Part shown: positions 2,344 to 25,820 of the stretch, piece by piece
Layout of the letters: each line of letters opens with the position of its first letter
Numbering within the stretch: position 1 is the first letter of the stretch
Assembly: GCF_041053055.1 (NCBI RefSeq)
Contig: NZ_CP163443.1
Location: 4,819,001 to 4,883,000, forward strand
Reading direction: 5' to 3'
DNA from: Streptomyces sp. R41
GTDB taxonomy: Bacteria > Actinomycetota > Actinomycetes > Streptomycetales > Streptomycetaceae
DNA: 64,000 bases
The notes under the pieces: generated by a model
Database searches by the model: none
What the model was told of the DNA's origin: nothing
The model's input: the letters and a program-made list of their open reading frames with translations, nothing else
Translations under genes and position numbers: made by a program

Positions 2344-5322
2344 TTACGGGCGTCCCTCCGTCAGCGCCTGCGCCAGTACCTCCGCGAGGTGTCGCCCCCT
2401 CCGCCCGGCCAACTGCTCCAGCTGGGTGCGGCAGGAGAAGCCGTCCGCCAGGATCACCGTGTCGTCGGCGGCCGCGCGGACCGCTGGGAGCAGTTGCTCC
2501 TCCGCGCAGGCCGTCGACACCTCGTAGTGGCCCTTCTCGAAGCCGAAGTTGCCCGCGAGGCCGCAGCAGCCGCCCGCGAGGGTGCCGGTCAGGCCCGCCG
2601 CCTCGCGCAGCCGGCGGTCGGCGGCGTCGCCGAGAACCGCGTGCTGGTGGCAGTGGGTCTGACCGACGGCCGGGCGGTCCAGGCGGGGCGGGGTCCAGTG
2701 CGGGGCATGGCGTTCCAGCGCCTCGGCGAACGTCAGCACCGCCGCCGCCAGACGCGCCGCGCGGGGGTCGTCGTGCAGCAGTTCCGGGAGGTCGGTGCGA
2801 AGGGCGGCGGCGCAGCTCGGTTCCAGTACGACGACCGAGATGCCGTCCATCTCCAGGTAGGGCTCCATCAGGTCGAGCGTGCGGCGCAGCCCGGCGCGGG
2901 CGCGGTCGAGCTGGCCGGTCGACACGTACGTCAGGCCGCAGCAGACGCGTTGGCGGCGCCGCAGAAGCACGTTGAGGCCGAGGGAGCCGACGGAGCCCGA
3001 CCGGCCGTCCCCGATCGGCCCGAAACCCATAAGTGTCGTGGGCGGCAGCAACACCGTGAGCCCGGCCGCCTCGAGGACCCGTACGGCCGCCCTGCCGACG
3101 GACGGTGAGAGGTACTCGGTGAAGGTGTCGGGCCACACCACTACGGTGTCCCCTGCGAACCCCGGGAACGCGTCCCGTTCCCCGCGCCGAGCGTCCCGGA
3201 CGAACGCCCGCACCCGGTCCCTGTACCTCCGCGACCACCATCGGCTGAACGTCTCCCGCGCCACCCGCGGAATCTCCCGCTCGGGCGCGATCCCGCCCAG
3301 CCGCTTGGCCACGGCGGCCAACGGCCGTACCGACGCAAGAAAGTTGACCAGCCGGGCCGAGTGCGTCCGGGTCACCGCCGCCAGCCAGACCGGCAGCCAC
3401 CCCATCGCGTAGTGCGCGGCCGGGCGCCGTCGCCCCTCGTAGTGGTGGTGGAGGAACTCCGCCTTGTACGTGGCCATGTCGACGCCGACCGGGCAGTCCG
3501 ACTTGCACCCCTTGCAGGAGAGGCACAGGTCCAGCGCGTCACGGACCTCGGTGGAGCGCCAGCCGTCCGTCACGACCTCACCCGCGAGCATCTCGTGCAG
3601 CAGCCGCGCCCGCCCGCGCGTGGAGTGCTCCTCCTCGCCGGTCACCCGGAAGGAAGGGCACATGACACCCGCGCCCGCCGCCACGGGAGCACGGCACTTG
3701 GCGACCCCCACACATCTGCGCACCGCCGCCGAGAAGTCCCCGCCGTCCGCCGGATATCCGAACACCACGTCCACCGGCTTCCGCGGCAGCACCGCGAACC
3801 GCAGGTTCTCGTCCAGCCGGTGCGGTCGTACGAGCATCCCGGGGTTGAGCAGGTCGTCCGGGTCCCAGATGCCCTTGGCCCGCTCGAAGAGGCCCACCAT
3901 CTCGGCGCCGTACATCGTGGGCAGCAGCTCCGCGCGCGCCTGCCCGTCCCCGTGCTCGCCGGACAGGGAGCCGCCGTGGGACACGACGAGTGCCGCGAGC
4001 TCCTCGGAGAAGCGCCGGAAGCGGGCCACGCCTTCGGGGCTCATCAGGTCGAAGTCGATGCGCACGTGGATGCAGCCGTCGCCGAAGTGCCCGTACGGAG
4101 TGCCGCGCAGGCCGTGGGCGGACAGCAGGCCTCTGAAGTCCCGGAGATACGCGCCCAGCCGGGCGGGGGGCACCGCGCAGTCCTCCCAGCCGGGCCAGGC
4201 CTCGCTGCCGTCCGGCATCCGGGTCGCCGTACCGCTCGCGTCCTCCCGGATGCGCCACAGGGCGCGCTGTCCGGCCGGGTCGGTGACCACGAGGGCGTCC
4301 GTCACGTCCGCCGCTCGCACGATCGTGTCCGCACGCGCGCGTGCCTCCGCCTGCGACGCGCCGCCCGTCTCCACGAACAGCCAGGCCCCGCCCCGCGGCA
4401 GCCCGGCGCCGGCCGGCACGAGATCCGCGGCCATCCCCTCCACCGTGAGTGGCCGGTGCGGCAGCAGCCCCGCGGCCGCCTCCGCCGCCGCGCTCTCGTC
4501 CGGATACGCCAGCACGGCCAGCGCCCGCGCGCGCGGCGCCTCCACCAGTCGTACGACCGCCTCGGTCAGCACCCCCCAGGTGCCCTCGGAGCCGCAGAAG
4601 GCGCGGGCGACGTCCGCGCCCTTCTCGGGGAGGAGGGCATCCAGCGCGTACCCGGAAATACGGCGCGGGAGGTCCGGGAAGCCGGTGCGCAGACGCGCCA
4701 ACTCGCCCTCCACCAGGGCCCGGAGGCCATCGGGGGCACCCGCCCAGTCCCGTCCGAGGCCCACGGAGACCCCTTGCCCGGTGATCACGGACAGCTCCCG
4801 CACGCTGTCCGCCGTCGTGCCCCAGGCCACCGAGTGGGAGCCGCACGAGTTGTTGCCGATCATCCCGCCGAGGGTGCAGCGGCTGTGGGTCGAGGGGTCG
4901 GGGCCGAAGCGCAGGCCGTGCGGGGCCGCGGCGTCCTGGATGCGGTCCAGTACGACACCGGGCTGGACCACGGCCGTACGGGCCTCCGGGTCGAGCGACA
5001 CGATCCGGTTCATGTGGCGTGTGAAGTCCAGGACGATGCCCGTGCCCGTGGCCTGCCCGGCGATCGACGTGCCGCCGCCGCGCGGCACCACCGGCACGCC
5101 GTGCGCGCGGCACACGGTGAGGGCCGCCGCCACGTCGTCGGCGTCGCGCGGGGAGACCACGCCGAGCGGGACGCGCCGATAGTTGGACGCGTCCATGGTG
5201 GTCAGCGCCCGCGCGGTCGCGTCGAAGGCGACCTCGCCGCGCACCGCCTTCTCCAGCCCGGTCCGCAGACCCGCGAGATCGGCCGCCGGCGCCGGTGTGC
5301 CCTGCTCCCCTAGATCCGTCAT
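2344..5322 (-). CDS. FAD-linked and 4Fe-4S 2-hydroxyacid dehydrogenase (D-lactate dehydrogenase/YdiJ-like)
   Basis: About 992 residues. The N-terminal half is an FAD-binding PCMH domain (VPRGGGTSIAGQ near residues 75-90) with a C-terminal FAD-oxidase cap. Two ferredoxin-like clusters follow: CVGVAKCR...MCPS near 536 and LSCKGCKSDCPVGVD near 597. Two CCG-type motifs, VCCGLTYV near 794 and GCCGLAGNFGFEKG near 920, end the protein. This order is that of the fused D-lactate or D-2-hydroxyglutarate dehydrogenases that pass electrons to the respiratory chain; the exact acid is not decided. The ATG at 5322 is preferred to a start 111 bases upstream because the extra residues are unlike the family and run through an 11-bp repeat block. 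It is divergent from the conservon. Confidence 0.85.
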   Translation of the reverse strand: MTDLGEQGTPAPAADLAGLRTGLEKAVRGEVAFDATARALTTMDASNYRRVPLGVVSPRDADDVAAALTVCRAHGVPVVPRGGGTSIAGQATGTGIVLDFTRHMNRIVSLDPEARTAVVQPGVVLDRIQDAAAPHGLRFGPDPSTHSRCTLGGMIGNNSCGSHSVAWGTTADSVRELSVITGQGVSVGLGRDWAGAPDGLRALVEGELARLRTGFPDLPRRISGYALDALLPEKGADVARAFCGSEGTWGVLTEAVVRLVEAPRARALAVLAYPDESAAAEAAAGLLPHRPLTVEGMAADLVPAGAGLPRGGAWLFVETGGASQAEARARADTIVRAADVTDALVVTDPAGQRALWRIREDASGTATRMPDGSEAWPGWEDCAVPPARLGAYLRDFRGLLSAHGLRGTPYGHFGDGCIHVRIDFDLMSPEGVARFRRFSEELAALVVSHGGSLSGEHGDGQARAELLPTMYGAEMVGLFERAKGIWDPDDLLNPGMLVRPHRLDENLRFAVLPRKPVDVVFGYPADGGDFSAAVRRCVGVAKCRAPVAAGAGVMCPSFRVTGEEEHSTRGRARLLHEMLAGEVVTDGWRSTEVRDALDLCLSCKGCKSDCPVGVDMATYKAEFLHHHYEGRRRPAAHYAMGWLPVWLAAVTRTHSARLVNFLASVRPLAAVAKRLGGIAPEREIPRVARETFSRWWSRRYRDRVRAFVRDARRGERDAFPGFAGDTVVVWPDTFTEYLSPSVGRAAVRVLEAAGLTVLLPPTTLMGFGPIGDGRSGSVGSLGLNVLLRRRQRVCCGLTYVSTGQLDRARAGLRRTLDLMEPYLEMDGISVVVLEPSCAAALRTDLPELLHDDPRAARLAAAVLTFAEALERHAPHWTPPRLDRPAVGQTHCHQHAVLGDAADRRLREAAGLTGTLAGGCCGLAGNFGFEKGHYEVSTACAEEQLLPAVRAAADDTVILADGFSCRTQLEQLAGRRGRHLAEVLAQALTEGRP

Positions 5323-5372
5323 ACCCCCAGGATGCCGCCGGGCACTGACAGTGACGGTCAGCCGCGCACCCC

Positions 5373-5431
5373 GAATCGCGGACGGATCGCGGACGGATCC
5401 CGGACAGATCGCGGCTCGATCACGGTCGATC
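5373..5431. repeat. 11-bp phased repeats between divergent genes
   Basis: Five to six imperfect copies of an 11-base unit close to GGATCGCGGAC lie head to tail between the dehydrogenase and the conservon. The period is about one helical turn, so all copies face the same side of the DNA, as for an array of regulator half-sites. No protein is known to me for this motif. Confidence 0.6.
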
Positions 5432-5476
5432 ATGCAACCGCTTCCAAAACCTTCCCAATTGGATCACGAACTCCCA

Positions 5477-5482
5477 TATAGT
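5477..5482 (+). promoter_or_regulatory. Possible -10 element of the conservon operon
   Basis: TATAGT is the best -10-like hexamer in the divergent spacer and lies about 110 bases before the start of cvnA. A CAATTG palindrome and TTGGAT lie just upstream, but none is at the ideal 17-18 base spacing for a -35 box. The promoter assignment is tentative. Confidence 0.35.
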
Positions 5483-5591
5483 GACGGCGAGTTGAGCATC
5501 AGGTGTCGCTTCTCGCTCACGACACGCCCGAGGAAACGCCCGACAACACGACCGAGGAACGTTCTCCCCCCAGAACACGACCGAGGACCGA

Positions 5592-7343
5592 TTGATGACC
5601 GCGCCCCTCCCCTCCGGCGAACGACCCACCCTCCGCGCCGTCGCGCCCGCTCCCCTGATCGCCGCCGTCCCGGCCGCGCTCGCGGTGGTCGGCGCGGTCG
5701 CCCTGGCGCCCGACTCGGTGCGCGCTCCCCTCGCCTGGGGCGCGGGCGCGGCCGCGGTGCTGCTGTGCGCGGCCGTCGCGGTGGCCGCCCGCGCCGTACA
5801 GACGGCGAAGCTGGTACGCCGCCGACTCGACACCGTGACCCAGGACGCCGGACGGCTGCTGCAGGAACGGGCCCGGCTGGCCGATGAGTTCAATCAGGAG
5901 CGGGCCCGGCTGGCCGACGACTCCGCGCGCGAGCGGGCCCGCCTGGCCGAGGCGGCGGCCCAGGAACGCGTGCGTCTGACCGAGGCGGCGGCACAGGAAC
6001 GCGCCCGTCTCACTGAGGAGTTCGCGGCAGAGCGGCAGCACCTCACCGGCGAACGCGCCCGTCTCGCCGAGGAGAACGCCCGGCTGACCGAGCGCGCCCG
6101 GCATTCCACGAGCCAGCGCGCCGCCGCGGTCTCGGCGACCGCCAACGCGGCGGGCCGCATGCAGGCGCTGGCCACCGGCATGCTCGCCGACCTGCGCGCC
6201 ATGGAGGAGCGGCACTCCGACGAGGAGGTCCTCGCCGACCTCCTCCACCTCGACCACCGCACCGCGCAGGCGGGCCGCCTCGCCGACTCCGTCGCCGTCC
6301 TCACGGGCGCCCGGTCGGGCCGCCGCTGGGCACGCCCCATCGTCATGGAGTCGATCCTGCGCGGCGCGATGGGCCGCATCGGCGGCTACCAGCGCGTGCG
6401 CGTGCACTCCGCCAGCGAGGCCGCCGTCGCCGGACACGCCGCCGAGGGCGTGATGCACGCGCTCGCCGAACTCCTCGACAACGCCGCGAACTTCTCGCCG
6501 CCAACGGCCGAAGTGCATGTGTACGTCGAAGAGGTCCCGGCCGGTGTCATCGTCTCCGTCGAGGACAGCGGGCTCGTCATGGGCGACGTCCAGCTGCGCC
6601 GCGCCGAGCGCGCCGTCTCCGCGGACGCCGAGAACACAGCGGAGCTCGGCGGGCTCACGGGCACCCGGCTGGGCCTCGCGGTGGTCGGCCGGCTCGCCCG
6701 CAAACACGGGCTGAAGGTGTCCTTCCGGCCCTCCGCGCGCGGCGGCACGGGCGTCCTGGTGCTCATCCCCCAGGACATCCTCACGCCCTCGACCACGCCG
6801 CTGCCGTCCGCACCGCTGCCCGCGGAGCCCGAGCCGGCCGCGATCCCGGTGCCGGCCACCGAGGTGTCGTACGCCGCCGGCCGTGCGGTGGGCGACCTCG
6901 ACCCGGACCCGGTCCCCACCCACGACTCGCCCCGGCACGAGCCGCTCCCGCCGTCCACGGGCGGCCTCCCCAAGCGCCGCCGCGGCCGCACCCTCGCGCA
7001 CGCCGAGCGCAGCCGAGCGCACGCGGCGCAGCCGCCCCGGACCGATCCGGAGCCCCGTACCGCCGACGACTCCACGGCAAGCGCCGCGGCCCGCTTCAAC
7101 AGCTTCCGCGAGGCGGTACGCGCCACGGCACCCGCGCCGGGCCCCGAGGACGCCGTACGGGACTCAGAAGACGTACGGATCGAGGCAGACGTACGGACAG
7201 ACGCGGACGCCCGTACGGACGCAGGCGTACGGACCGACGAAGCCGTAGAGGCCACAGCCCCCGCCACCCCCTCGAACTCGAACTCGCACGCCCACCCGCA
7301 GCCGCAGCCGCACTCGCACCCGGAAGGCGACACCACTTCATGA
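5592..7343 (+). CDS. cvnA: Conservon sensor-like ATPase (CvnA type)
   Basis: A 583-residue membrane protein. Two hydrophobic segments lie at about residues 15-35 and 45-65. A long coiled coil of about six 11-residue repeats of the type ERARLAEAAAQ follows (about 95-185), then a dimer-like helical region and a GHKL ATPase domain (ELLDNAANFS N-box, VEDSG, TRLGLAVVGRL). The C-terminal 200 residues are disordered and repetitive (VRTDAD-like). This is the architecture of the CvnA proteins, which are thought to act as a membrane receptor complex with CvnB-D. The phospho-acceptor histidine is not obvious. The start may be TTG or the ATG in the next codon. The stop overlaps the next start as ATGA. 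Confidence 0.9.
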   Translation: MMTAPLPSGERPTLRAVAPAPLIAAVPAALAVVGAVALAPDSVRAPLAWGAGAAAVLLCAAVAVAARAVQTAKLVRRRLDTVTQDAGRLLQERARLADEFNQERARLADDSARERARLAEAAAQERVRLTEAAAQERARLTEEFAAERQHLTGERARLAEENARLTERARHSTSQRAAAVSATANAAGRMQALATGMLADLRAMEERHSDEEVLADLLHLDHRTAQAGRLADSVAVLTGARSGRRWARPIVMESILRGAMGRIGGYQRVRVHSASEAAVAGHAAEGVMHALAELLDNAANFSPPTAEVHVYVEEVPAGVIVSVEDSGLVMGDVQLRRAERAVSADAENTAELGGLTGTRLGLAVVGRLARKHGLKVSFRPSARGGTGVLVLIPQDILTPSTTPLPSAPLPAEPEPAAIPVPATEVSYAAGRAVGDLDPDPVPTHDSPRHEPLPPSTGGLPKRRRGRTLAHAERSRAHAAQPPRTDPEPRTADDSTASAAARFNSFREAVRATAPAPGPEDAVRDSEDVRIEADVRTDADARTDAGVRTDEAVEATAPATPSNSNSHAHPQPQPHSHPEGDTTS

Positions 7344-7747
7344 CCGGCACGACCACCGCCGACGAGAAGCTCACCTGGCTCATCGAGGGCCTGCTTGAGC
7401 GCACCCCGGGCGCCCGGCACGCGCTCGTGCTCTCCCGCGACGGCCTGAAGCTGTGCCGCACCCCGGAGCTGTCGGTCGACGAGGCCGACCAGCTCGCCGC
7501 GATCGCCGCCGGCATCCAGTCGCTGTCGCACGGCGCGTCCGTGGAGTTCGGCGACGGCAGTGGTGGAGTGCGCTCGGCCATGGCCGAGTTCTACGGAGGG
7601 GTCCTGTTCATCGTGGAGGCTGGCGACGGAGCGCACCTGGCCGTGGTCACCGCCGAGGACGCGGACGCCGGTCTGGTCGGGCACAACATGAGCGAACTCG
7701 TGGAGCAACTCGGCGAACACCTGATCGCGCAGCCCCGTACGTCATGA
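7340..7747 (+). CDS. cvnB: Roadblock/LC7-domain protein (CvnB type)
   Basis: A 135-residue protein made of a single roadblock/LC7 fold. The start DEKLTWLIEGLLERTPGARHA and the later LVLSRDGL and VEAGDGAHLAVVT strands are characteristic. In the cvn9 system of S. coelicolor the B protein associates with CvnA and CvnD; it probably acts as an adaptor or GTPase regulator. It overlaps cvnA by four bases (ATGA) and is itself overlapped by cvnC in the same way, which shows translational coupling. Confidence 0.92.
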   Translation: MTGTTTADEKLTWLIEGLLERTPGARHALVLSRDGLKLCRTPELSVDEADQLAAIAAGIQSLSHGASVEFGDGSGGVRSAMAEFYGGVLFIVEAGDGAHLAVVTAEDADAGLVGHNMSELVEQLGEHLIAQPRTS

Positions 7748-8091
7748 GCCGCCCGGGCAGGGACGACGCGCCCGACCGGCTGTACACCCTCACGGGAGGG
7801 CGCAGCCGGTCCGCGTCCGGCACCCCCTTCGACCTGGTGACGCTGGTGGTCGCGGAGTGCGATCCGGTGGTGGGCATGCAGTCGGAGCACGCCGCGATCC
7901 TGCGACTCGCCCAGCGGCCCACGGCGGTCGTCGAGATCGCGGCAGAGCTGCGGCTGCCGGTGAGTATCACGAAGATCCTTATCTCCGACCTCCTCGCCGC
8001 GGGCCGCGTCAGCGCCCGCCACCCGCACGCCGCCGCTCTCCCCGATCCCGACATCCTGGAGCAGGTGCTCGTTGGACTCCGCAACCTCTGA
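7744..8091 (+). CDS. cvnC: DUF742 protein (CvnC type)
   Basis: A 115-residue protein with the DUF742 signature: the N-terminal RLYTLTGGRSR motif, the FDLVTLV segment and a winged-helix-like body ending in LISDLLAAGRV. DUF742 proteins are the third member of conservons and are thought to bridge the roadblock protein and the GTPase. Coupled to cvnB by ATGA. Its last codons lie inside the start of cvnD and inside the first copy of a 21-bp duplication. Confidence 0.92.
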   Translation: MSRPGRDDAPDRLYTLTGGRSRSASGTPFDLVTLVVAECDPVVGMQSEHAAILRLAQRPTAVVEIAAELRLPVSITKILISDLLAAGRVSARHPHAAALPDPDILEQVLVGLRNL

Positions 8092-8758
8092 CGCTCGTAC
8101 GTCAACCTCTGACGCTCGTACGTCCACGGGTGCCCCCGGCGCCCGTACGCCCCTGGCGGCATCGGCCGACAACGGCCTCAAGATCGTGGTCGTCGGCGGC
8201 TTCGGCGTCGGCAAGACGACCCTGGTCCGCTCCGTGAGCGAGATACGTCCCCTCAACACCGAGGAGACGATGACGCAGGCCGGCGCGACCGTCGACGACA
8301 TCAGCGAGGTGCGCGGCAAGTCCGCGACCACCGTCGCCTTCGACTTCGGCCGCATCACGCTGGACGCCCGCAATGTGCTGTACCTCTTCGGAGCGCCGGG
8401 GCAGGAGCGCTTCTGGCTCCTCTGGGACCGGCTGTTCTCCGGCACGCTCGGCGCGGTCGTCCTCGTCGACACCCGCCGTATCGACGACTCCTGGTACGCG
8501 ATCGACCGCCTGGAGCACGTCGGCACGCCGTTCATCGTGGCCTGCAACGACTTCGGCGGCCCCCCGCACCCGCCCAGCCGGATCCGCGAGGCCCTCGCCC
8601 TCGACCCGCGCGTCCCGCTGCTCGACTGCGACGCCCGCTCACGGGAGTCCGGCAAGCGGGTGCTGATCACGCTCGTCGAGCACCTCAAGTCTCTGTGCAC
8701 CCCTCACGGCGCCGCGACCGCGCACGGCGCCATACGATCACCGGAGTTGGCGCTGTGA
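8072..8758 (+). CDS. cvnD: Conservon small GTPase (CvnD type)
   Basis: A 228-residue Ras-like GTPase with the P-loop GGFGVGKTT (near residue 43), a switch region around EETMTQAG, and G3 as GAPGQERFW. The G4 position reads ACNDFGG instead of a standard NKxD, as is usual in this divergent family. The TTG start inside cvnC gives the family-typical N-terminus MDSATSD. In conservons this GTPase is the output switch of the CvnA-C complex. Its stop overlaps the next GTG start (GTGA), tying it to the P450 gene. Confidence 0.9.
   Translation: MDSATSDARTSTSDARTSTGAPGARTPLAASADNGLKIVVVGGFGVGKTTLVRSVSEIRPLNTEETMTQAGATVDDISEVRGKSATTVAFDFGRITLDARNVLYLFGAPGQERFWLLWDRLFSGTLGAVVLVDTRRIDDSWYAIDRLEHVGTPFIVACNDFGGPPHPPSRIREALALDPRVPLLDCDARSRESGKRVLITLVEHLKSLCTPHGAATAHGAIRSPELAL
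8083..8124 (+). repeat. Perfect 21-bp tandem duplication across the cvnC/cvnD overlap
   Basis: Bases 8083-8103 are repeated exactly at 8104-8124. The first copy holds the cvnC stop codon. Both copies are read in the cvnD frame and add a second SDARTST to its N-terminus. The duplication keeps both reading frames intact, since 21 is a multiple of three. Confidence 0.9.
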
Positions 8759-9963
8759 CCCCCGCCCCCGTGCCCCTCAGCGGGCCCCGGTTCCAGACCG
8801 AACCCGCCGAGCTGTACCGGGAGATGCGGCGCGAGCACGGTGCCGTGGTGCCGGTCGTGCTCGACGGCGACGTACCGGCGTGGCTGGTGCTCGGCTATCG
8901 CGAACTGCACCAAGTCACCGGCGATCCCGTGCTGTTCAGCCGGGACTCCGACCTGTGGAACCAGTGGGAGCGCATCCCCGACGACTGGCCGCTGCTGCCG
9001 ATGATCGGCCGCAAGCAGCCGTCCATCCTCTACACGGTCGGCCAACGCCATCGCGAGCGCGCCGCGATGATCAGCGACGCGCTCGAAGCGGTCGATCCCT
9101 TCGAACTGCGCTCCCACGCCGAGAGGTTCGCCGACGAACTGCTCGACGCGATCTGCGCCAAGGGCGAGACGGACATCGTCGGGGAGTACGCGGCGCTGCT
9201 GCCCGTCCGCGTCCTCGCGACGCTCTACGGCTTCGCGGAGGAGCAGGGGCCGGGCCTGGTCACCGCCCTGAACGACATGATCAACGGGCGGGAGGAGGCG
9301 CTGGCGGGCCAGCGGCACCTGGCCACGTCCATGGCGCGGTTGCTGGCCGACCGGAAGGCCGAGCCCGCGCACGACGTGGTCAGCCGCATGCTGGCAAACG
9401 CGAGCGGCTTCACCGACGAAGAGGTGATGCAGGACCTGATGGTCATGATGGCCGCGGGCCACCAGCCGACCGCCGACTGGATCGGCAACTCGCTGCGCCT
9501 GATGCTGACGGACGAGCGTTTCGCGGCGTCGCTCTTCGGCGGCCGGCACAGTGTCGCCGAGGCCATGAACGAGGTCCTGTGGGAGGACACCCCCACCCAG
9601 AACGTGGCGGGGCGCTGGGCCTCCCGCGACACTCAGCTCGGCGGCCGCCGCGTCCGCGCCGGCGACCTGCTGCTGCTCGGCCTCCAGGGCGCCAACTCCG
9701 ACCCCCAGGTCCGCACCGACGGCTCCGCCCTCACCGGCGGCAACAAGGCCCACTTCTCCTTCGGCCACGGGGAGCACCGGTGTCCGTTCCCGGCCCAGGA
9801 GGTGGCGGAGGTGATCGCGCGGACCGGGATCGAGGTCGTACTGGACCGGCTGCCGGACATCGACCTGGCCGTGCCTGCCGAGTCGCTGGCCCGGCGGCCG
9901 TCCCCGTGGCTGCGGGGCCTGACCGCGCTGCCCGTGAGGTTCACGCCTGTTCCTGCCCGGTGA
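8755..9963 (+). CDS. Cytochrome P450, CYP157-like, lacking the ExxR motif
   Basis: A 402-residue P450 coupled to cvnD through GTGA. The haem loop is FSFGHGEHRCPFPAQE: the cysteine ligand is present but the usual following glycine is proline. In the K-helix the expected ExxR reads EVLW, with no arginine, and the I-helix has AAGHQPTADW in place of AGxET. Loss of ExxR is known from the CYP157 family, whose genes sit in conservons next to a CYP154. The natural substrate of these P450s is unknown and catalytic activity should not be assumed. Confidence 0.88.
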   Translation: MTPAPVPLSGPRFQTEPAELYREMRREHGAVVPVVLDGDVPAWLVLGYRELHQVTGDPVLFSRDSDLWNQWERIPDDWPLLPMIGRKQPSILYTVGQRHRERAAMISDALEAVDPFELRSHAERFADELLDAICAKGETDIVGEYAALLPVRVLATLYGFAEEQGPGLVTALNDMINGREEALAGQRHLATSMARLLADRKAEPAHDVVSRMLANASGFTDEEVMQDLMVMMAAGHQPTADWIGNSLRLMLTDERFAASLFGGRHSVAEAMNEVLWEDTPTQNVAGRWASRDTQLGGRRVRAGDLLLLGLQGANSDPQVRTDGSALTGGNKAHFSFGHGEHRCPFPAQEVAEVIARTGIEVVLDRLPDIDLAVPAESLARRPSPWLRGLTALPVRFTPVPAR

Positions 9964-10004
9964 AACCCCGTCACGCCCGGTCGGCCTGTTTTCCGGCCGG
10001 GGGC

Positions 10005-10022
10005 CTGGGGGTTGTCCCCCAG
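10005..10022 (+). terminator. Short hairpin between the two P450 genes
   Basis: CTGGGGG and CCCCCAG pair perfectly around a TTGT loop in the 100-base gap between the P450 genes. There is no T-run, so it may slow or stabilise the transcript rather than end it. Confidence 0.4.
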
Positions 10023-10065
10023 ATGGATGCAGTACGCCCACTCCCGTTCTTGGAGGCCCTGCCGC

Positions 10066-11280
10066 ATGACCACTCGTATCGCCCTGGACCCCTTCGTCAC
10101 CGATCTGGAGGGCGAGAGCGCGGCACTTCGCGCGGCGGGCCCGCTGGCCGCCGTCGAACTGCCGGGCGGCGTCCCGGTGTGGGCGGTCACGCACCATGCC
10201 GAGGCCCGCGCCCTGCTCACGGACCCCCGGCTGGTGAAGGACATCAACGTCTGGGGTGCGTGGCAGCGCGGCGAGATACCCCCGGACTGGCCGCTGATCG
10301 GGCTCGCCAACCCCGGCCGCTCCATGCTCACGGTGGACGGCGCGGACCACCGGCGTATGCGCACGCTGGTCGCGCAGGCGCTCACCCCACGCCGGGTGGA
10401 GCAGATGCGCGAGCGGATCACCAAGCTGACGGAGGGGCTGCTGGACGGTCTGCCGGACTCCGCCGAGGTGATCGACCTGAAGGCGGACTTCGCCTACCCC
10501 CTCCCCATGTACGTCATCGCCGATCTCATGGGCATCGACGAGTCCCGGCCTCCCCGCCTCAAGGAACTCTTCGAGAAGTTCTTCTCGACGCAGACTCCGC
10601 CGGCGGAGGTCATCGCGACGCTGACGGAGCTGGCGGGCATCATGGCGCAGACGGTCGCGGCGAAGCGCGCCGAGCCCGGCGACGACCTCACATCCGCGCT
10701 GATCCTGGCCTCAGAGGACGGCGACCACCTCACCGACGAGGAGATCGTCTCCACCCTGCAGCTGATGGTCGCGGCGGGTCACGAGACGACGATCTCGCTG
10801 ATCGTCAACGCGGTGGTCAACCTCTCCACCCATCCCGACCAACGCGCCCTCGTCCTTACCGGCGAGGCCGATTGGGCGTCAGTGATCGAGGAGACCCTCC
10901 GCTACTCCACCCCCACCTCCCACGTCCTCATCCGCTTCGCGACGGAGGACGTCCCGGTGGGTGACGAGGTGCTCCCCGCGGGGGACGCCCTGATCGTGTC
11001 GTACGGCGCGATCGGCCGTGACGAGCAGGCTCACGGTCCGACCGCCGGCGCCTTCGACATCACCCGCGGCACCGAGAACCGCCACATCTCCTTCGGCCAC
11101 GGCCCCCATGTCTGCCCCGGCGCCGCGCTCTCCCGCCTGGAGGCGGCGGTCGCCCTCCCGGCCCTGTACGCCCGCTTCCCGTCCCTCGATCTGGCGATCC
11201 CCGCCTCGGAACTCCGCCACAAGCCCGTGGTGACCCAGAACGATCTCTTCGAGCTGCCGGTGCGGCTGACCACGGGCTGA
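10066..11280 (+). CDS. Cytochrome P450, CYP154-like
   Basis: A 404-residue soluble P450 with all canonical motifs: AAGHETTISL in the I-helix, EETLRY as ExxR, and FGHGPHVCPGAAL around the haem cysteine. The start is placed at the ATG that opens MTTRIALDPFV, the usual family N-terminus; an upstream in-frame start would read through the hairpin. A CYP154 directly after a CYP157 at the end of a conservon is a recurring Streptomyces arrangement. Several CYP154 enzymes hydroxylate steroids or small aromatics in vitro; the physiological substrate here is unknown. Confidence 0.9.
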   Translation: MTTRIALDPFVTDLEGESAALRAAGPLAAVELPGGVPVWAVTHHAEARALLTDPRLVKDINVWGAWQRGEIPPDWPLIGLANPGRSMLTVDGADHRRMRTLVAQALTPRRVEQMRERITKLTEGLLDGLPDSAEVIDLKADFAYPLPMYVIADLMGIDESRPPRLKELFEKFFSTQTPPAEVIATLTELAGIMAQTVAAKRAEPGDDLTSALILASEDGDHLTDEEIVSTLQLMVAAGHETTISLIVNAVVNLSTHPDQRALVLTGEADWASVIEETLRYSTPTSHVLIRFATEDVPVGDEVLPAGDALIVSYGAIGRDEQAHGPTAGAFDITRGTENRHISFGHGPHVCPGAALSRLEAAVALPALYARFPSLDLAIPASELRHKPVVTQNDLFELPVRLTTG

Positions 11281-19264: not shown

Positions 19265-19348
19265 GGTTCGCCGGCTGCTTCGTCAGCGAACAGCCTGAAG
19301 AAGTCGGTCCTTGCCTAGAGCGCACTCCACCCCGTTGGCTAGTCAGTC

Positions 19349-19504
19349 ATGAAGTACACGCAGCTCGGACGCACGGGACTCAAGGTCAGCCGGCTCGTCC
19401 TCGGCACCATGAACTTCGGTCCGCAGACCGATGAGGCCGACAGTCACGCCATCATGGACGCGGCGCTGGACTCGGGGATCAACTACTTCGACACGGCCAA
19501 GTAG
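19349..19504 (+). pseudogene. Aldo/keto reductase, N-terminal fragment cut by the element
   Basis: Fifty-one codons, beginning MKYTQLGRTGLKVSRLVLG and ending INYFDTAK with a stop supplied by the inserted element. The fragment keeps the first barrel strand and the active-site aspartate but lacks the catalytic Tyr, Lys and His. The rest of the gene begins at 24966, on the same strand and in the matching phase, starting with the same eight bases TTCGACAC. The intact gene would have encoded about 330 residues. Confidence 0.93.
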
Positions 19505-19516
19505 GCATTTTGATGC
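19487..19516. other. attL: core and left attP arm
   Basis: TTCGACAC (19487-19494) is the host/element overlap. GGCCAAGTAGG follows, then the arm CATTTTGATGC at 19506-19516. Together with attR this rebuilds an attP of about 50 bases with 24 bases between the arms CAAAATG and CATTTTG, so the symmetry centre falls inside or next to the shared core. Confidence 0.8.
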
Positions 19517-19586
19517 ATCGAGATACGCAGCGACCGCCGCCCCCCATGTAGAGGAGCGGCGGTCGCGGGCTCGGGGAGCCCGCTGA

Positions 19587-20582
19587 TCACCAGGCGAAGG
19601 CCTCCGGAGACGGGCCCGGCCCGGGGAAGATCTCGTCGAGCGAGGTGAGGACTTCCTCGCTCAGTTCCAGCTCTACGGCCCGCAGCGCAGACTCCAGCTG
19701 TTCGGCGGTGCGCGGGCCCACGATCGGGCCGGTGACGCCGGGACGGGTGAGGAGCCAGGCCAGGGCGGCTTCTCCGGGCTCGATGCCGTGCTTGTCGAGG
19801 AGGTCCTCGTACGCCTGGATCTGCGCGCGTGAGGTGGGGTTGGCGAGGGTGTCGGCGGCCCTGCCGCTGGCCCGGCGCCCGCCCGAGATCTCCTTCTTGA
19901 TGACTCCGCCGAGCAGTCCGCCCTGGAGCGGCGACCAGGGGATGACTCCGAGGCCGTACTCCTGCGCGGCCGGGATGACCTCCATCTCGGCGCGGCGCTC
20001 GGCGAGGTTGTAGAGGCACTGCTCGCTGACGAGGCCGATGGTGCCGGAGCGGTGGGCGGCGATCTCATTGGCCTGGGCGATCTTGTAGCCGGGGAAGTTG
20101 GAGGACCCGACGTAGAGGATCTTGCCCTGCTGGATGAGCGTGTCGATCGCCTGCCAGATCTCCTCGAAGGGGGTGGCACGGTCGATGTGGTGGAACTGGT
20201 AGACGTCGATGTAGTCGGTCTGCAGCCGCTTGAGGCTGGCGTCCACGGCCCTGCGGATGTTCAGCGCGGAGAGCTTGTCGTGGTTGGGCCAGGGGGCCTC
20301 GCCGTCGGCGGCCATGTTGCCGTACACCTTGGTCGCGAGCACGGTCTTGTCGCGCCGCTCGCCGCCCTTGGCGAACCAGTTGCCGATGATCTCTTCGGTA
20401 CGGCCCTTGTTCTCGCCCCACCCATAGACGTTGGCCGTATCCACGAAATTCAGCCCCGCGTCCAGCGCAGAGTCCAGGATCGCGTGGCTGGTGGGTTCGT
20501 CGGTCTGAGGTCCGAAGTTCATGGTGCCGAGCACCAGCCGACTGACCTTGAGTCCCGTGCGTCCGAGCTGCGTGTACTCCAT
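19587..20582 (-). CDS. Intact aldo/keto reductase carried by the element
   Basis: A 331-residue NADPH-dependent aldo/keto reductase with the full catalytic set: Asp and Tyr in VDTANVYGWG, Lys in LATKVYG and His in YQFHHID. By eye it differs from the reconstructed host protein at about 31 positions, roughly 90% identity, and the two agree to the last residues SPEAFAW. It could therefore replace the function destroyed by the insertion. Around the position equal to the att core the DNA has changed much more than elsewhere: the core TTCGACAC reads GTGGATAC, and codons unusual for the genus (AAT, GAT, TAT, GGG) cluster there. The ATG opening MEYTQLGRTG is chosen by homology. Confidence 0.9.
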   Translation of the reverse strand: MEYTQLGRTGLKVSRLVLGTMNFGPQTDEPTSHAILDSALDAGLNFVDTANVYGWGENKGRTEEIIGNWFAKGGERRDKTVLATKVYGNMAADGEAPWPNHDKLSALNIRRAVDASLKRLQTDYIDVYQFHHIDRATPFEEIWQAIDTLIQQGKILYVGSSNFPGYKIAQANEIAAHRSGTIGLVSEQCLYNLAERRAEMEVIPAAQEYGLGVIPWSPLQGGLLGGVIKKEISGGRRASGRAADTLANPTSRAQIQAYEDLLDKHGIEPGEAALAWLLTRPGVTGPIVGPRTAEQLESALRAVELELSEEVLTSLDEIFPGPGPSPEAFAW

Positions 20583-20676
20583 GGCCCCCAAGCCAACGCC
20601 TTCGAGCCCGCTCAAGGCAACCGGTACCTGCGCCTCTGTGCGCCTTCCTCAGCCGCTTACGCGTGACTGTCCGAGG

Positions 20677-21279
20677 TCACCCCGCCGTACCGGTGAGCGC
20701 CCGGTAGACAGTCGCCTGACCGATGCCAAGAGCCTTGGCGATGGCACCGTAGCTCTGACCCTCCGCCCTCAAGTCTTCGGCGCGCTGGATCATCTTGGGG
20801 TCCATGGCCTTGGGGCGCCCGCCCACCTTGCCCTGCGCCTTGGCGGCGGCGAGTCCGGCAACGGTCCGGTCCTTGATGAGCGCCCGCTCGAACTCGGCCA
20901 TGGCCGCGATGATCTGGAAGAACAGTCGCCCGTCGGCGGAAGTGGTGTCGACGGAGGACAGAGCACCGGTCAGCACCTTGAACCCCACTCCCTTGGCACG
21001 CAGGCCGTCAACGATGGACACCAGGTCGATCAGCGACCGGCCGAGACGATCGAGCTTCCAGACGCACAGGGTGTCGCCCTCACGCAGGTAGTCGAGTACG
21101 GCTGCCAGCTCTGGCCGGTCGGCGTTCTTCCCGCTGGCCGTTTCCTCGAAGATGCGGGCGCAGCCTGCCTCCGTCAGCGTGTCGCGCTGTAGCTGCGCCT
21201 CCTGGTCTTCGGTGCTGATGCGTGCGTACCCAATGAGGTGCCCCGCGGGAGTGATGATCTTCGACACAAGCCGGATCAT
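20677..21279 (-). CDS. Small serine recombinase (resolvase/invertase, Pin-like)
   Basis: About 200 residues. The catalytic domain starts IGYARISTEDQEAQL with the nucleophile serine, includes VWKLDRLGRSLIDL and MAEFERALIKDRT, and is followed by a helix-turn-helix ending SYGAIAKALGIGQATVYRAL. Enzymes of this type resolve or invert DNA between short sites, or act as transposon resolvases. ATG codons at 21279 and 21291 are both possible starts. A cluster of repeated boxes at 21290-21439 lies right at and before the start, where res sites are normally found. This is a second recombinase in addition to the element's large integrase. Confidence 0.9.
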   Translation of the reverse strand: MIRLVSKIITPAGHLIGYARISTEDQEAQLQRDTLTEAGCARIFEETASGKNADRPELAAVLDYLREGDTLCVWKLDRLGRSLIDLVSIVDGLRAKGVGFKVLTGALSSVDTTSADGRLFFQIIAAMAEFERALIKDRTVAGLAAAKAQGKVGGRPKAMDPKMIQRAEDLRAEGQSYGAIAKALGIGQATVYRALTGTAG

Positions 21280-21289
21280 TCCACAACTC

Positions 21290-21439
21290 ATTCCGAAACA
21301 CCAAGTGTTCCAGAACATCGAATGCATGAGTTTCGGAACGGGATGGCGGCACGCTCTGGAGCGTTCCGATAACCATCGTTTCTGGAATGACCCTGGCGTG
21401 ATCACGCCCCGCCAGGGTCAACGGCTTGAAGTTCCAGAC
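21290..21439. promoter_or_regulatory. Res-like cluster of six GTTCC-x-AAC boxes
   Basis: Six related boxes occur in 150 bases upstream of the resolvase: ATTCCGAAAC (21290), GTTCCAGAAC (21307), GTTTCGGAAC (21330, inverted), GTTCCGATAAC (21363), GTTTCTGGAAT (21378, inverted) and GTTCCAGAC (21431). Pairing of direct and inverted copies is what a multi-subsite res region looks like. The cluster overlaps the resolvase start, so binding would also repress the gene. Confidence 0.6.
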
Positions 21440-21450
21440 AGCACGGGAGT

Positions 21451-22047
21451 TCAGCTCGGCCATGGCAGCACGGTGAGTTCCGGCCACTGGCTCTTCCAGC
21501 GCGTGGCCTTGGCCTCGTAGACCTCCTGCGGGGCAAGGACCGGGTTGGGGCGGACCACAAGGTTGAAAATGTCGGAGAGCCCATGGGGTGCATACACGCG
21601 CCACTCTCCGGTCGGTTCCAGCCTCACGCCCAGGCAGCACGTGGTCGCCGCGAAGCAGTCGATCGCAGCCTCGGCCGAATCGTGTGGCGGGCAGGGCTTC
21701 CCGAACTTCTGCTCGTACCAGAGATGGACGCGCGCCTCGTTACGGATCTCCACCTCGGCCGACAGGTCGTCGAACACCTCTCGCCCTGCCTTGATCACCT
21801 CATCCTCTGCCGTCCAGGACAGGTCGATGTTGTCGAAGTAGAAGAGGTCGTAGTCCTTGATGCCGGTGGCCGGTGGCCTGTCGGTGACCACGTTCCACAC
21901 CGTTTGGAAGAGACACCCCGCTGTCACGTACCAGCCGGGCAAGGCCATCGTCGCTGCCCTGCCCAGCACCTCCGTCAATACCTCGTTGCGGGAGAGCACA
22001 GTCCGCAAGACGCCAAGCTGCTCATCGAGAGGAAGTCGACCAAACAT
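21451..22047 (-). CDS. Nucleotidyltransferase-family protein (NTP_transf_6/COG3575-like)
   Basis: A 198-residue protein with a minimal nucleotidyltransferase core: ALPGWYVTAGCLFQTVWNVV, then GIKDYDLFYFD carrying the metal-binding aspartates, and later RNEARVHLWYEQKFG and a C-terminal block ending in KATRWKSQWPEL. The family is predicted to transfer nucleotides but has no settled substrate. As cargo of a small mobile element it might be a defence or toxin-like enzyme, which is inference only; no antitoxin partner is evident next to it. Confidence 0.8.
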   Translation of the reverse strand: MFGRLPLDEQLGVLRTVLSRNEVLTEVLGRAATMALPGWYVTAGCLFQTVWNVVTDRPPATGIKDYDLFYFDNIDLSWTAEDEVIKAGREVFDDLSAEVEIRNEARVHLWYEQKFGKPCPPHDSAEAAIDCFAATTCCLGVRLEPTGEWRVYAPHGLSDIFNLVVRPNPVLAPQEVYEAKATRWKSQWPELTVLPWPS

Positions 22048-22634
22048 CGGTCCTGCGTATCACGCATGCCGGGATGCACGAAGCGAGTTGACGCCAAGCG
22101 GAGGCGTCGAAGCGGCGGCGAACGGGCGGGGGTATGACCCTGTGAAGGCGCCATAACAGACCGCTCTGTCTTGGCAGCTCAGGTCCTGCCACGGTTCCAG
22201 GGGTCGCCAGAGGCTCGGCGAAGCGTGTAGCGCCTTGTCCTGCTTCTTCATGAAGTGGGGCGCTTGCGCGCCTCTGCCTCGACCTACCGTTGTACGTAAG
22301 GGACTTTCCACTGTGCGGCCCCTTCGGGGCCGTCCTCGATGTTGACGCGCTTCGGACGGTGGCGCTTTCCGGCCGCCCCTTGCCGCTTTCTCCTTCGCCC
22401 TTGCCCCAAAGGCTTCGCTCTGTCGGTCCCGCCAGGGGCCGCCCTGTCCTTGCCCCTGGTGCCCTCCGCTTCCCCTTCCTTCGGCTCGCCACTGTCTCCA
22501 GAGAGATAGAGAAGAACAGCACGAACTACCAGGTCAGAAGCGTGCCACTACACGTCTCGCGTGCAGTGGCACCCCCGATCGACACGTACTGCGTGCATCT
22601 CGCTCGCCCCACCTGTACGTCTCACGTGTCGGCC
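22048..22634. other. Spacer within the element, no convincing gene
   Basis: About 590 bases without a reading frame I can defend. It contains a perfect GGCCCC-TTC-GGGGCC hairpin near 22317-22331 and a C/T-rich segment to 22500 with several short GGCTTCG-type stems. It separates the nucleotidyltransferase from the unknown gene and may hold the nucleotidyltransferase promoter or an untranslated RNA. Confidence 0.4.
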
Positions 22635-23071
22635 CTACGGACGCCAGCGCCTCGCCGGATACACGCGGTGCTCTTCACAGAACTTGTCTCCATTGCCCTT
22701 CTGCACACGACACTCCGTAAGGACAAGGCACCGCCGGTTCGACTCGGGCTCGACGAAACCCCACCCCTTGGCCCTACGGATGTGGTTGTTCAGCGCGTTG
22801 ACCGACAAGGACTTGCCGTTCTTGTCGGCGAGCACCTCGTTCAGCTTCCCCTTGGGGAACTCCGCGTGCCCGATCTGGTTCGCCCACCCCATGGCCGCGT
22901 ACTCGACACGGTGGGCGTAGTCGAAGCGCGGCTCCCTGGCCCGACGCTTGTACTCCTCCTGAGAAACGGCGATGTAGTCACCCTCGAACTGGATCGGCGT
23001 ACGCCCCACAGGCAGCCCCTTCGTCCACGGCGCCGTGAGCGCCGGTAGGTCCCCGTCGAAGCGGGGGTCAT
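22635..23071 (-). pseudogene. Unknown element protein, apparently frameshifted near its start
   Basis: The main frame encodes 124 residues from a GTG at 23009: GRTPIQFEGDYIAVSQEEY, then GKSLSVNALNNHIRRAKGWG and CEEHRVYP near the end, possibly a winged-helix DNA-binding protein. The good protein character continues upstream of 23009 (RFDGDLPALTAPWTKGLPV) to about 23062, but there is no start in that frame. An ATG at 23071 preceded by AAGGGAG is one base out of phase, and a run of five G (23063-23067) lies between. Adding one base to that run would give MTPRFDGDLPAL. Either the gene is broken, or the run was mis-sequenced, or GTG 23009 is the true start. Confidence 0.5.
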
Positions 23072-23248
23072 GGGCTCCCTTCTGGTAGGCGTGCGCCTGA
23101 TCAGCCGAGGTGGAAGGTGTATAGAGGCACAGCGGTACCCAACATGTCGGACTCCGCCGGCACTCCCGAGGTTGCGATGACGCCCGTCACAGCGATCCGA
23201 GCACGGGAAGGGCCCTGTGATCGAGCCCTGCTCGTTTCGACCCTGGTC

Positions 23249-24895
23249 CTAGCCGTGCGTCGCCGTGAACTGCCGTACCCGATCGCTGAAGTCCCGGGGG
23301 AACTCGATCTCGATGCGGCCGATCCTCTGACGCATCTTTCCCTCGTCGAGGGTCACGAGAGGCTTGCCGCCGATGTAAGCAACCGGGACGTCGTCGATGT
23401 GCACGGTCACCCTCAGCCCGGCGGAACGGAGTTCCTTGCCCTTCTCCTCATCGGTGGAGAGTTGCGCCCAACGCTGCCGGTACGTCTGGCCGGTCGGGAT
23501 CTCTTCCCAGGTGTCAGGCCGGGTGGGGAGGGACATGAGCTGTTCTCGCTTCGCATCCAAGCGCGCGTACGACTCCCGATACTCCTGCTTACCGGTCTCG
23601 GAGGAGTAGAGCCCGGCTTCCCGATCCTCACGCAGTTCCGCCAGAGCGCGGGTCACTTCCTCGACGTCCTTCGTGTGGTCGACACCGGGACGGAAGACTC
23701 GACGGACGATCTCGATATCTCCTGCTACACGCAGGAACTCACCCTCGACCGTGCTCTCAAGAAGAGCCGCGCTGATGCTCTTGTTCCCCGTGCTGCACGG
23801 CTTGTGGGTGATTCTGCTGGCGCAGCGGTAGTGGGGCCAGTTGTGGCCAGGAGCGCGGTATACCGGCTCATCGCAAGCGCAGAACGCCACCCTCAGCAGT
23901 GGGGAACCTCCCGTACGGCTGCCGGACCTCTTGCTGGTGTTCTCCTCCAGCTTCTTGCTCGCGAGTTCCCAGTCCTCTTTGGAGATCAGCGGTTCAGCGC
24001 GCTGAAGCGGCAAACCGTCAGCACCACGGACGAGACGAGTCCGCCGCTCGGTCCGTCCATCGGGGAGAGTGACCTCTTCGGTCATCTCAACCTGTCCCAG
24101 GAGGGCGGGAGAACGGAGCAACTTGGCCAAGTTGCTGGAGGTCCATCGCGACCCCTTCGGCTCCTTGCCGCTCCGGATGCGCTGGGCATCGACGGAGGCC
24201 GGTGTCTTGGTGGCGTCTTCGTTGAGCCACCGGCAGAGACTGTTCGCGGACTCGCCGCCGATGATCCTGCGCACGATCTCTCGCAGCGTCCCAGCGGTGT
24301 TCAGCCCGTACTCGTCGGGCACGAGCGTCCAGCCGTCGCCGGTCTCCGCCTTCTCCGGTCGGTAGCCGTACGGCACCTTGCCTCCGCGCCAGCGCCCTTC
24401 CTTCATCAGGTGCACATAAGACGACTTGGCCCGGGCTTTGATGGCTTCGAGCTCCCCCTCCGCGAAGGAGGCGATGAGCTGGAACAGGATGCGCCCCATG
24501 GGGGACGACAGGTCGATGTCCCCCTCCGCCGTGGCGATCTGCTTGCCGGTCCGGTCACACCACTCAGCGAGTACGTTGACGTGAATCACTCGGCGGGAAA
24601 GCCGGTCGAGCTTCCACGCGCAGATGATGTCGAACTCCGCAGCGCGGCACTCCTCCCACGCGAGCCGGTGCTCGATGTCGCTCACGTCCTTGCCGATCGT
24701 GGACGGCAGCCACTTGCCGAACTCGGGACGCTTCCAAGGTTCGACGCCTCCAGACACGTCGACGTCCTCGACCCAGCCGACGATGACGTGTCCGTTCCCG
24801 TCCGCCCATCGTTGAACGGATGCCTTCTGCCGGACGACCGACGTGCTCTCGTCGCTCTCCCTCGACAGGCGAACTACCCCCAGAACCCTTGCCAC
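23249..24895 (-). CDS. int: Large serine integrase
   Basis: A 548-residue large serine recombinase. The catalytic domain begins ARVLGVVRLSRESDESTS with the nucleophile near residue 11 and includes CAWKLDRLSRRVIHVNVL. It is followed by a recombinase domain (GKVPYGYRP onwards), a zinc-ribbon-like region with cysteines in FCACDE, HYRCAS and KPCST, and a coiled-coil segment near VTRALAELREDRE. The GTG start at 24895 has GAGGAAGG seven bases upstream and is preferred to the TTG 33 bases earlier. The gene lies directly beside attR, as usual for integrases, and is the enzyme expected to have integrated the element. Confidence 0.93.
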   Translation of the reverse strand: MARVLGVVRLSRESDESTSVVRQKASVQRWADGNGHVIVGWVEDVDVSGGVEPWKRPEFGKWLPSTIGKDVSDIEHRLAWEECRAAEFDIICAWKLDRLSRRVIHVNVLAEWCDRTGKQIATAEGDIDLSSPMGRILFQLIASFAEGELEAIKARAKSSYVHLMKEGRWRGGKVPYGYRPEKAETGDGWTLVPDEYGLNTAGTLREIVRRIIGGESANSLCRWLNEDATKTPASVDAQRIRSGKEPKGSRWTSSNLAKLLRSPALLGQVEMTEEVTLPDGRTERRTRLVRGADGLPLQRAEPLISKEDWELASKKLEENTSKRSGSRTGGSPLLRVAFCACDEPVYRAPGHNWPHYRCASRITHKPCSTGNKSISAALLESTVEGEFLRVAGDIEIVRRVFRPGVDHTKDVEEVTRALAELREDREAGLYSSETGKQEYRESYARLDAKREQLMSLPTRPDTWEEIPTGQTYRQRWAQLSTDEEKGKELRSAGLRVTVHIDDVPVAYIGGKPLVTLDEGKMRQRIGRIEIEFPRDFSDRVRQFTATHG

Positions 24896-24947
24896 TTCGG
24901 CACCTTCCTCCCCAGTCCAGGAGGACAACGCTAGGCAGAAGCAACCA

Positions 24948-24973
24948 GCATGTCAAAATGAATTCTTCGACAC
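24948..24973. other. attR: right attP arm and core
   Basis: GCATGTCAAAATG (24948-24960) is the right arm, inverted relative to the left one, followed by AATTC and the core TTCGACAC (24966-24973). From the core onwards the sequence is the 3' part of the host reductase, continuing as TGCGAACGTGTACGG. Confidence 0.8.
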
Positions 24974-25820
24974 TGCGAACGTGTACGGCTGGGGTGAGAA
25001 CAAGGGCCGTACGGAATCGATCATCGGGAGCTGGTTCGCCAAGGGCGGCGAGCGGCGCGACAAGGTGGTCCTCGCCACCAAGGTGTACGGGAACATGGCG
25101 GTCGACGGCGACCCATGGCCGAACCACGACAAGCTCTCCGCGCTCAACATCCGGCGGGCGGTCGACGCCAGTCTCAAGCGGCTCCAGACCGACTACATCG
25201 ACATCTACCAGTTCCACCACATCGACCGCTCGACTCCCTTCGAGGAGATCTGGCAGGCGATCGACGTGCTGGTCCAGCAGGGGAAGATCCTCTACGTGGG
25301 GTCCAGCAACTTCCCCGGGTACAAGATCGCCCAGGCCAACGAGATCGCCGCGAGGCGCCACGGCACCATCGGCCTCGTCAGCGAGCAGTGCCTCTACAAC
25401 CTCGCCGAGCGGCGCGCCGAGATGGAGGTCATTCCGGCAGCGCAGGAGTACGGGCTCGGGGTCATCCCCTGGTCACCGCTGCACGGCGGACTCCTCGGCG
25501 GGGTCATCAAGAAGGAGGCCGAGGGCGGACGCAGGGCGAGCGGCCGGGCCGCCGACTCCCTCGCCAACACCACGATCCGCGCGCAGATCCAGGCGTACGA
25601 GGATCTGCTCGACAAGCACGGCCTGGAGCCCGGCGAGACCGCGCTGGCCTGGCTGCTGACCCGGCCCGGTGTCACCGGGCCCATCGTCGGCCCGCGCACC
25701 GCGCAGCAGCTGGAGTCCGCGCTGCGCGCCGTAGAGCTGGAACTGTCGGAGGAGCTCCTGACGTCCCTGGACGAGATCTTCCCGGGTCCTGGCCCGTCGC
25801 CGGAGGCCTTCGCCTGGTAG
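24966..25820 (+). pseudogene. Aldo/keto reductase, C-terminal fragment cut by the element
   Basis: Codons for FDTANVYGWGENKG through to SPEAFAW, 284 in all, including the catalytic Tyr, Lys (LATKVYG) and His (QFHHIDR). No ribosome site or start precedes it, so it is not expected to be translated in the integrated state, although the frame stays open into the element and a fused product cannot be excluded. Joined to the fragment at 19349 across the shared TTCGACAC it gives an uninterrupted protein of about 330 residues. Confidence 0.92.

Follow-up and report, generated by a model that had tools for sequence, protein, structure and literature searches.

Mobile elements with a serine integrase are generally found to interrupt genes that the host can spare, or the ends of genes. 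The locus described here raises the question of how such an element can sit in the catalytic-motif codons of a conserved enzyme gene, and why it carries a complete second copy of that gene in which the integrase target is spelt differently. The DNA analysed is a stretch of 64,000 nucleotides (G000:C1:4819001-4883000, referred to as the window in this article) from the 10.46-Mb single-contig genome of Streptomyces sp. R41. A sequence-only reading of this DNA had proposed that the element carries a replacement copy of the gene it disrupts, altered at the att core. We consider it probable that this is an insert-and-rescue element whose rescue copy has been recoded to prevent its use by the element's own attP. 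Comparison with related elements supports replacement together with target alteration as an evolved, shared pattern, and it goes beyond the sequence-only reading in that the trait is common to many elements, cargo tails have been exchanged with host genes, and inversion between the cargo and the broken copy seems to occur.

Organization of the element

The serine-integrase element occupies positions 19493-24971 (5.48 kb; 5,479 bp counting one AC) and splits a chromosomal aldo/keto reductase (AKR) gene at the codons of its DTA-x-x-YG motif. The host gene starts at 19349 on the plus strand, is broken after TTCGACAC at 19494, resumes with a second AC at 24972 and ends with its stop codon at 25820. 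Its 5' fragment (19349..19504, plus strand) consists of host sequence through the AC at 19493-19494, followed by element sequence up to an in-frame TAG at 19502-19504, and is 80% identical to the cargo across residues 1-51; the 3' fragment (24972..25820, plus strand) runs from the right AC copy (24972-24973) through the stop. The sequence TTCGACAC is found at both ends of the element as a short shared core. An in-frame fusion of an element-borne gene end with the host gene is absent: the 5' fragment meets the TAG, and the complete gene brought by the element is separate and inverted.

Five ORFs were examined on the minus strand of the element. The one nearest the 5' fragment (19587..20582) encodes a complete AKR of 331 aa (PF00248, E=1.3e-72), the putative rescue gene, to which we refer as the cargo. 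A small serine recombinase gene (Resolvase PF00239 plus HTH_7) lies 94 bp upstream of it at 20677..21279, its longest ORF spanning 20677-21405. The large serine integrase is encoded at 23249..24895 with a likely GTG start at 24895, the longest ORF reaching 24928, and contains PF00239 at residues 16-180 and PF07508 at residues 211-330 of 559 aa; for a zinc ribbon domain in its C-terminal part, Pfam gave no match at E<=0.001. The small recombinase and a 124-aa orphan protein (22635..23009) flank a 198-aa protein with a Pfam match to nucleotidyltransferase family PF06042 (21451..22047), of which no relative was listed in the search around the relatives' integrases. The orphan has no match in Pfam or NCBIfam; its relatives, at 40-73% identity, are found beside integrases of both target types described below, and it may be a candidate directionality factor or regulator.

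The Pfam and NCBIfam scan found no virion, replication or conjugation genes among the five ORFs. An origin from a known phage or plasmid was considered and rejected, all matching phage records (1009) and plasmid records (539) being below 60% identity; among viral contigs four stretches matched a pattern and none was confirmed. A consensus scan of 19340-25000, a kind of scan that says little for Streptomyces, detected no promoters.

The cargo and the split host protein are identical at 300/331 aa (90.6%), with 86.5% identity at the nucleotide level, in agreement with the value of about 90% over the whole length that the sequence-only reading had given. The altered letters at the att core were likewise as described: on the minus strand at 20437-20444 the cargo has GTGGATAC in place of the host's TTCGACAC, that is, GTG GAT AC versus TTC GAC AC at codons 47-49, the central dinucleotide AC being kept unchanged. 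The closest solved sequences are two AKRs, 8xr2 and 8jwk. Following the AKR motif, we take Asp48, Tyr53, Lys85 and a His to be the catalytic residues, and the site spans the codons of Asp48 and Tyr53. A close AKR gene is present in 190/199 genus genomes (E<=1e-120), i.e., it is near universal.

Related elements and their targets

The integrase search returned matches in 12/392 genus genomes at E<=1e-100 and 20 genome_contigs loci, and, at E<=1e-150, in 10/394 family-level and 5/394 class-level genomes, all of these sets overlapping. The family- and class-level searches added only two new elements, namely G680, which is of AKR type, and G468, which is of yifB type; the others (G537, G651 and G865) correspond to loci L026, L039 and L040. 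All named relatives are from Streptomyces, except one from Actinorugispora.

After merging of duplicates there are 26 AKR-targeting loci, comprising 25 with an integrase (partial in L043 and split in G680) and G012. A full-length AKR is carried by 25/25 AKR-type loci with a readable far end, L040 being outside this count as its sequence ends 1 kb beyond the integrase. The sequence-only reading had asked whether each relative carries a homologue of its target, and for these AKR-targeting elements the answer is yes in every case, with an altered site. The newly added G680 fits the pattern in carrying an AKR cargo; at this locus (L177, 8151-12042) about 2 kb of other sequence separates the integrase gene into two parts, and the AKR cargo is intact. 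At L161 in G012 (7972-10272) an intact AKR cargo lies between 5' and 3' AKR fragments. The 18 kb fetched yielded no integrase, and the locus looks like a stripped element that has retained nothing but its rescue gene.

Six further loci target yifB (L024, L037, and those in G169, G030, G191 and G468, labelled L165, L166, L167 and L178), a name that rests on TIGR00368 and PF01078/PF13335 in two loci and on likeness in the rest. In none of the six was a second yifB copy found, both junctions being in view in five of them and only one in G030. In the integrase tree, built without G468 and G680, the yifB types are grouped with support 0.978 and the window integrase falls outside this group, with the AKR types, while its pairwise identity is 77% to the yifB-type L024 versus 64-76% to the AKR types (the 76% being a partial match). 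The sister clade shows that a change of target between yifB and AKR has taken place. Relatives that lack the reductase, which the sequence-only reading had named as evidence against its proposal, do exist; they are this sister clade inserting in yifB, and they do not count against the proposal for the AKR-targeting elements.

The substitution pattern of the cargos is that of genes under purifying selection, constrained like the native genes. Compared with the nearest native from codon 61 on, median dN/dS is 0.170 for cargos (n=23), 0.168 for natives (n=99) and 0.166 for host 3' fragments (n=20). The fragments thus show no general relaxation, which fits recent insertions and is no proof that the host copy is dispensable. 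Decay of the host fragments was considered as proof of redundancy and set aside, as it is not general among the 20 fragments; it is visible in L026, L032 and L034, and L041 has two stops. In L036 and L164 no host AKR fragment was found.

Crossover and attachment sites

The crossover was located from the junctions of relatives and from the midpoint of the inverted attP arms. In L031, the integrase-side junction reads GGCGTCAAAATTGATCTTTGAACAC and then host sequence, and the other side reads host TTCGACAC and then CGCCAACCGGCAATTTTGACGCC; the reconstituted attP has 13-bp arms that are perfect inverted repeats with the AC of codon 49 at their midpoint. The attP of the window element has 8-bp inverted arms, TCAAAATG on the left (24953..24960) and CATTTTGA on the right (19506..19513), again with AC at the midpoint, compared with 13-bp arms in L031 and others. 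The bases to the left of AC on the integrase side vary among elements and are often not TTCGAC, so they are derived from the element, and the exchange is therefore placed at AC, that is, at bases 1-2 of codon 49, of which the window has its left copy at 19493..19494. Small insertions at the crossover, for example a repeated AC, are seen at the left junctions of L029, L030 and L041.

Counting outward from AC, positions 5 and 6 of attB are both A in 9/9 left halves and 18/18 right halves. The corresponding positions of attP are A in 16/18 and 17/18 left halves and in 7/9 and 6/9 right halves, three of the latter being shifted by small insertions. In the left attB half, position 6 falls on the first T of codon 47. 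By-eye comparison was also made for the idea that the cargo site mimics attP, which was discarded; in the window, the resemblance to attP is closer for the native left half than for the cargo.

Recoding of the cargo site

Divergence, dN/dS and codon statistics were obtained from the 23 cargos and 99 natives that remained after removal of identical rows, with L163 and L177 left out. The 99 natives are the fetched subset of the 190 matching genomes, mostly from the top of the ranking by likeness to the window cargo, and are not a random sample. The stretch of codons 43-56 (20415..20456, minus strand, in the window cargo), which is the counterpart of the attB footprint, was chosen when differences in this region were already apparent but the crossover had yet to be mapped; codon 49, where the crossover lies, is its centre.

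Codon 47 is never TTC in the 25 cargos (GTA in 10, CTG in 7, GTT in 3, GTG in 3, GTC in 1 and TTT in 1), whereas TTC is found in 94 of the 99 natives (the others having GTG in 3, GTC in 1 and CTC in 1). Residue 47 is changed in 24/25 cargos; the cargo of L036 keeps Phe47, spelt TTT GAT. The core codons of L164 are GTA GAC ACG. The central AC is unaltered in the cargos. A clustering of AAT, GAT, TAT and GGG codons at the core, pointed out in the sequence-only reading, was borne out. Among all cargos, TAT for Tyr53 occurs in 18/23 versus 7/99 natives, GGG for Gly54 in 20/23 versus 12/99, and GAT for Asp48 in 9/23 versus 1/99. Two-fold codons ending in T amount to 51/114 within codons 43-56 and 48/1044 elsewhere in cargos, compared with 33/586 and 58/4596, respectively, in natives, and codons 43-56 have the largest gap between cargos and natives in this measure, ranking first among 319 windows of 14 codons. 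The window cargo taken alone has 3/5 T-ending codons in this stretch versus 1/45 elsewhere (Fisher p=0.002), and in L019 none of the two-fold codons of the footprint ends in T.

Compared with L044, the nearest native by tail, the window cargo has 13 differences in the 42 nt of codons 43-56 and 60 in the 825 nt after them, while native-native pairs of similar tail divergence differ at 2.3 nt in this stretch on average and 0/65 of them reach 13. The excess in the core over the nearest native is such that it is reached by 7 or fewer native pairs of like divergence in 16/23 cargos. It is not unusual in the remaining 7/23 (L018, L025, L027, L028, L033, L034 and L075), where 4.7-43% of native pairs are as large; for six of these seven the nearest native itself has Val47 (L110, L118). 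In total codon difference between cargos and natives, codons 43-56 rank 5 of 319, and windows within codons 27-50 are equally high. The uneven divergence anticipated by the sequence-only reading, an excess in about 30 bases, stands as regards its position, with a peak at the attB footprint that includes synonymous positions, and does not stand as regards its width, the raised region being wider than 30 bases.

The extension of raised divergence back to about codon 27 is one of several observations that agree with a different explanation, namely rescue without immunity, according to which the cargo was captured long ago from a diverged AKR with Val or Leu at position 47, and the difference in the core was inherited without any selection against the integrase. 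The heads of the cargos (codons 1-56) mostly form one clade, so the 25 cargos are not 25 independent events, and Val or Leu is found at position 47 in 5/99 natives. The heads of the window cargo and L036 appear to be separate from the main group, in a 168-nt tree that resolves little. Simple inheritance does not account well, however, for the six forms of codon 47, one of them a synonymous Phe, nor for a peak of synonymous T-ending codons exactly around the crossover, nor for the retention of the patch in L019, L026 and the window cargo, whose tails were replaced by host-like sequence. We therefore regard it as unlikely.

Another possibility is that an altered enzyme activity is the reason for keeping the cargo, the replacement of Phe47 by Val or Leu beside the catalytic Asp being the point and the change of the att site a by-product. 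Residue 47, which we take to adjoin the catalytic Asp of the AKR, is indeed altered in nearly all cargos, yet this leaves the synonymous changes at codons 48, 53 and 54 unexplained, L036 retains Phe, and cargos and natives have the same dN/dS, which makes the explanation very improbable in our view.

Mosaic cargos and probable inversions

In a tree of the tails (codons 56 on) the cargos are scattered among natives, while the heads mostly cluster. Simple vertical descent of the cargos was rejected, as the tails fall at several native positions and the heads mostly together. The tail of the window cargo groups with natives of G067 and G182, and with neither the other cargos nor the 3' fragment of its own host, which suggests that the element probably came from another Streptomyces lineage. 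Compared with natives, L019 (from G256) differs at 17/822 nt in the tail and at 35/168 nt in codons 1-56, and L026 at 28/822 nt and 32/168 nt, respectively.

The cargo and the host 3' fragment form inverted repeats of about 850 bp. In L026, L036 and L164 (the last from the same genome as L019) the full AKR adjoins the native downstream genes, as expected if recombination between the inverted repeats of cargo and 3' fragment had placed the recoded head before the host tail. Gene conversion was considered for the mosaics in L019 and L026 and set aside, inversion being the simpler process given the gene order in L026, L036 and L164.

The same repeats bear on the idea that the patch serves to make homologous recombination of the cargo with the inverted 3' fragment of the host gene less frequent. 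The length of the repeats, and loci arranged as an inversion would leave them, indicate that such recombination could matter; a patch of 42 bp in 996 bp, however, leaves the remainder about 87% alike, the inversions seem to have occurred anyway, and the patch is centred on the crossover. We give this idea almost no credence.

Uninterrupted AKR genes with Val47 and cargo-like heads were observed at L153 in G171 (7065-8054), L154 in G064 (7052-8041) and L155 in G134 (5225-6211). Both flanks keep the native gene order in G171, G134 is rearranged, and G064 has no flank match. Transfer of the patch into the native gene would fit these cases, natural variation being the alternative, and these genes may be alleles that acquired resistance along with the recoded patch.

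Proposed explanation and significance

We return to the insert-and-rescue reading given at the outset. Several of its parts can be read from the DNA: the element is inserted, its cargo is intact with the site altered, the cargos are under purifying selection, the recoding is localised, and the arrangement recurs in 25 elements. Rescue is well supported by the comparison. The large serine integrase would use as attB the catalytic-motif codons of the conserved Streptomyces AKR gene, and recombination with attP would split that gene. The element brings a complete AKR gene, presumably expressed and able to replace the split one functionally, so the host would keep the enzyme. An element that holds its own target gene would have attP and attB on one circle, so that a cargo with a functional attB would work against it; serine integrases are described as joining attP with attB and no other pairing unless a phage-encoded factor is supplied (PMC3783163). 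The stretch of the cargo equivalent to attB carries synonymous and conservative (Phe to Val/Leu) substitutions, changes that may be limited to these kinds because the site lies on highly conserved codons. If the integrase refuses this recoded site, as we infer, the circular element would have no pair of attP and working attB, and the resident copy would offer no second target. Avoidance of self-recombination would then be the selective cause of the recoding, and the apparent benefit to the element is to spread without costing the host its enzyme and without attacking itself.

A broader account concerns the family as a whole: an integrase lineage would have adopted a conserved and useful gene as attB and would keep a functional copy of it, selection would repeatedly rewrite the footprint and thereby keep the element from recombining with itself, tails would be refreshed from host genes with the patch retained, and patches may have entered G171, G064 and G134, making these hosts resistant. 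We judge this account about equally likely to be right or wrong.

The AKR family indicates another route for serine-integrase elements, in which the target gene is carried whole and rewritten. Some 25 natural variants show which substitutions in an enzyme under continued selection may escape the integrase. The family also opens two questions to testing: how self-recombination is avoided by an element with both attP and its target gene, and how an integrase lineage shifts to a conserved target. In addition, the attP/attB pairs could become integration tools for Streptomyces that spare the function of the target.

Comparison with known systems

The R41 element shares with large serine recombinase elements and prophages (phiC31, Bxb1, A118 and phiJoe types) the combination of PF00239 and PF07508, an inverted-arm attP with a central dinucleotide, and a target inside a protein gene; it differs from them in adding a whole copy of the target gene with an altered att site. 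The family looks like a natural counterpart of engineered rescue drives. In home-and-rescue and Cleave-and-Rescue gene drives a gene is disrupted and a recoded rescue copy is carried. The AKR family shares this logic, with a complete rescue copy in 25/25 and target-site recoding in 25/25 (codon 47 not TTC). Gene drives, in contrast, are designed nuclease systems in animals with biased inheritance, whereas the present case is a natural integrase element of bacteria in which the copy is predicted to be resistant.

Published accounts of natural elements mostly concern disrupted targets or targets restored by a supplied gene end. Streptococcal ICEs with serine integrases are described as disrupting protein genes that are mostly non-essential (PMC4701971), phiJoe as inserting near a gene end (PMC5311408), and, among integration tools for Streptomyces, most targets are reported to be inactivated, with two exceptions named (PMC12924846). 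According to a survey, 12.4% of site-specific integrases have a magnesium chelatase gene as their target (PMC10083194), to which the Mg-chelatase-like yifB of the sister clade may be compared; the main text of that survey of serine integrases contains no word beginning with "restor-". The sequence-only reading had suggested that the strategy is undescribed, and apparently it is, since no whole-gene, site-recoded rescue in a serine-integrase element was found in the open-licence PubMed Central literature.

In tRNA islands the target is restored by an element-borne gene end (PMC4383910), and dusA islands provide a new 5' end of dusA (PMC4482086). These islands have in common with the present family that the host retains the function of the target after insertion. 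They differ in that the supplied piece is fused to the split gene, whereas here the two host pieces remain apart, and the element supplies a complete gene of its own, oppositely oriented and with an altered site. Restoration by gene ends, as in tRNA genes and dusA, is thus already known, and what appears to be new here is a whole, rewritten target gene.
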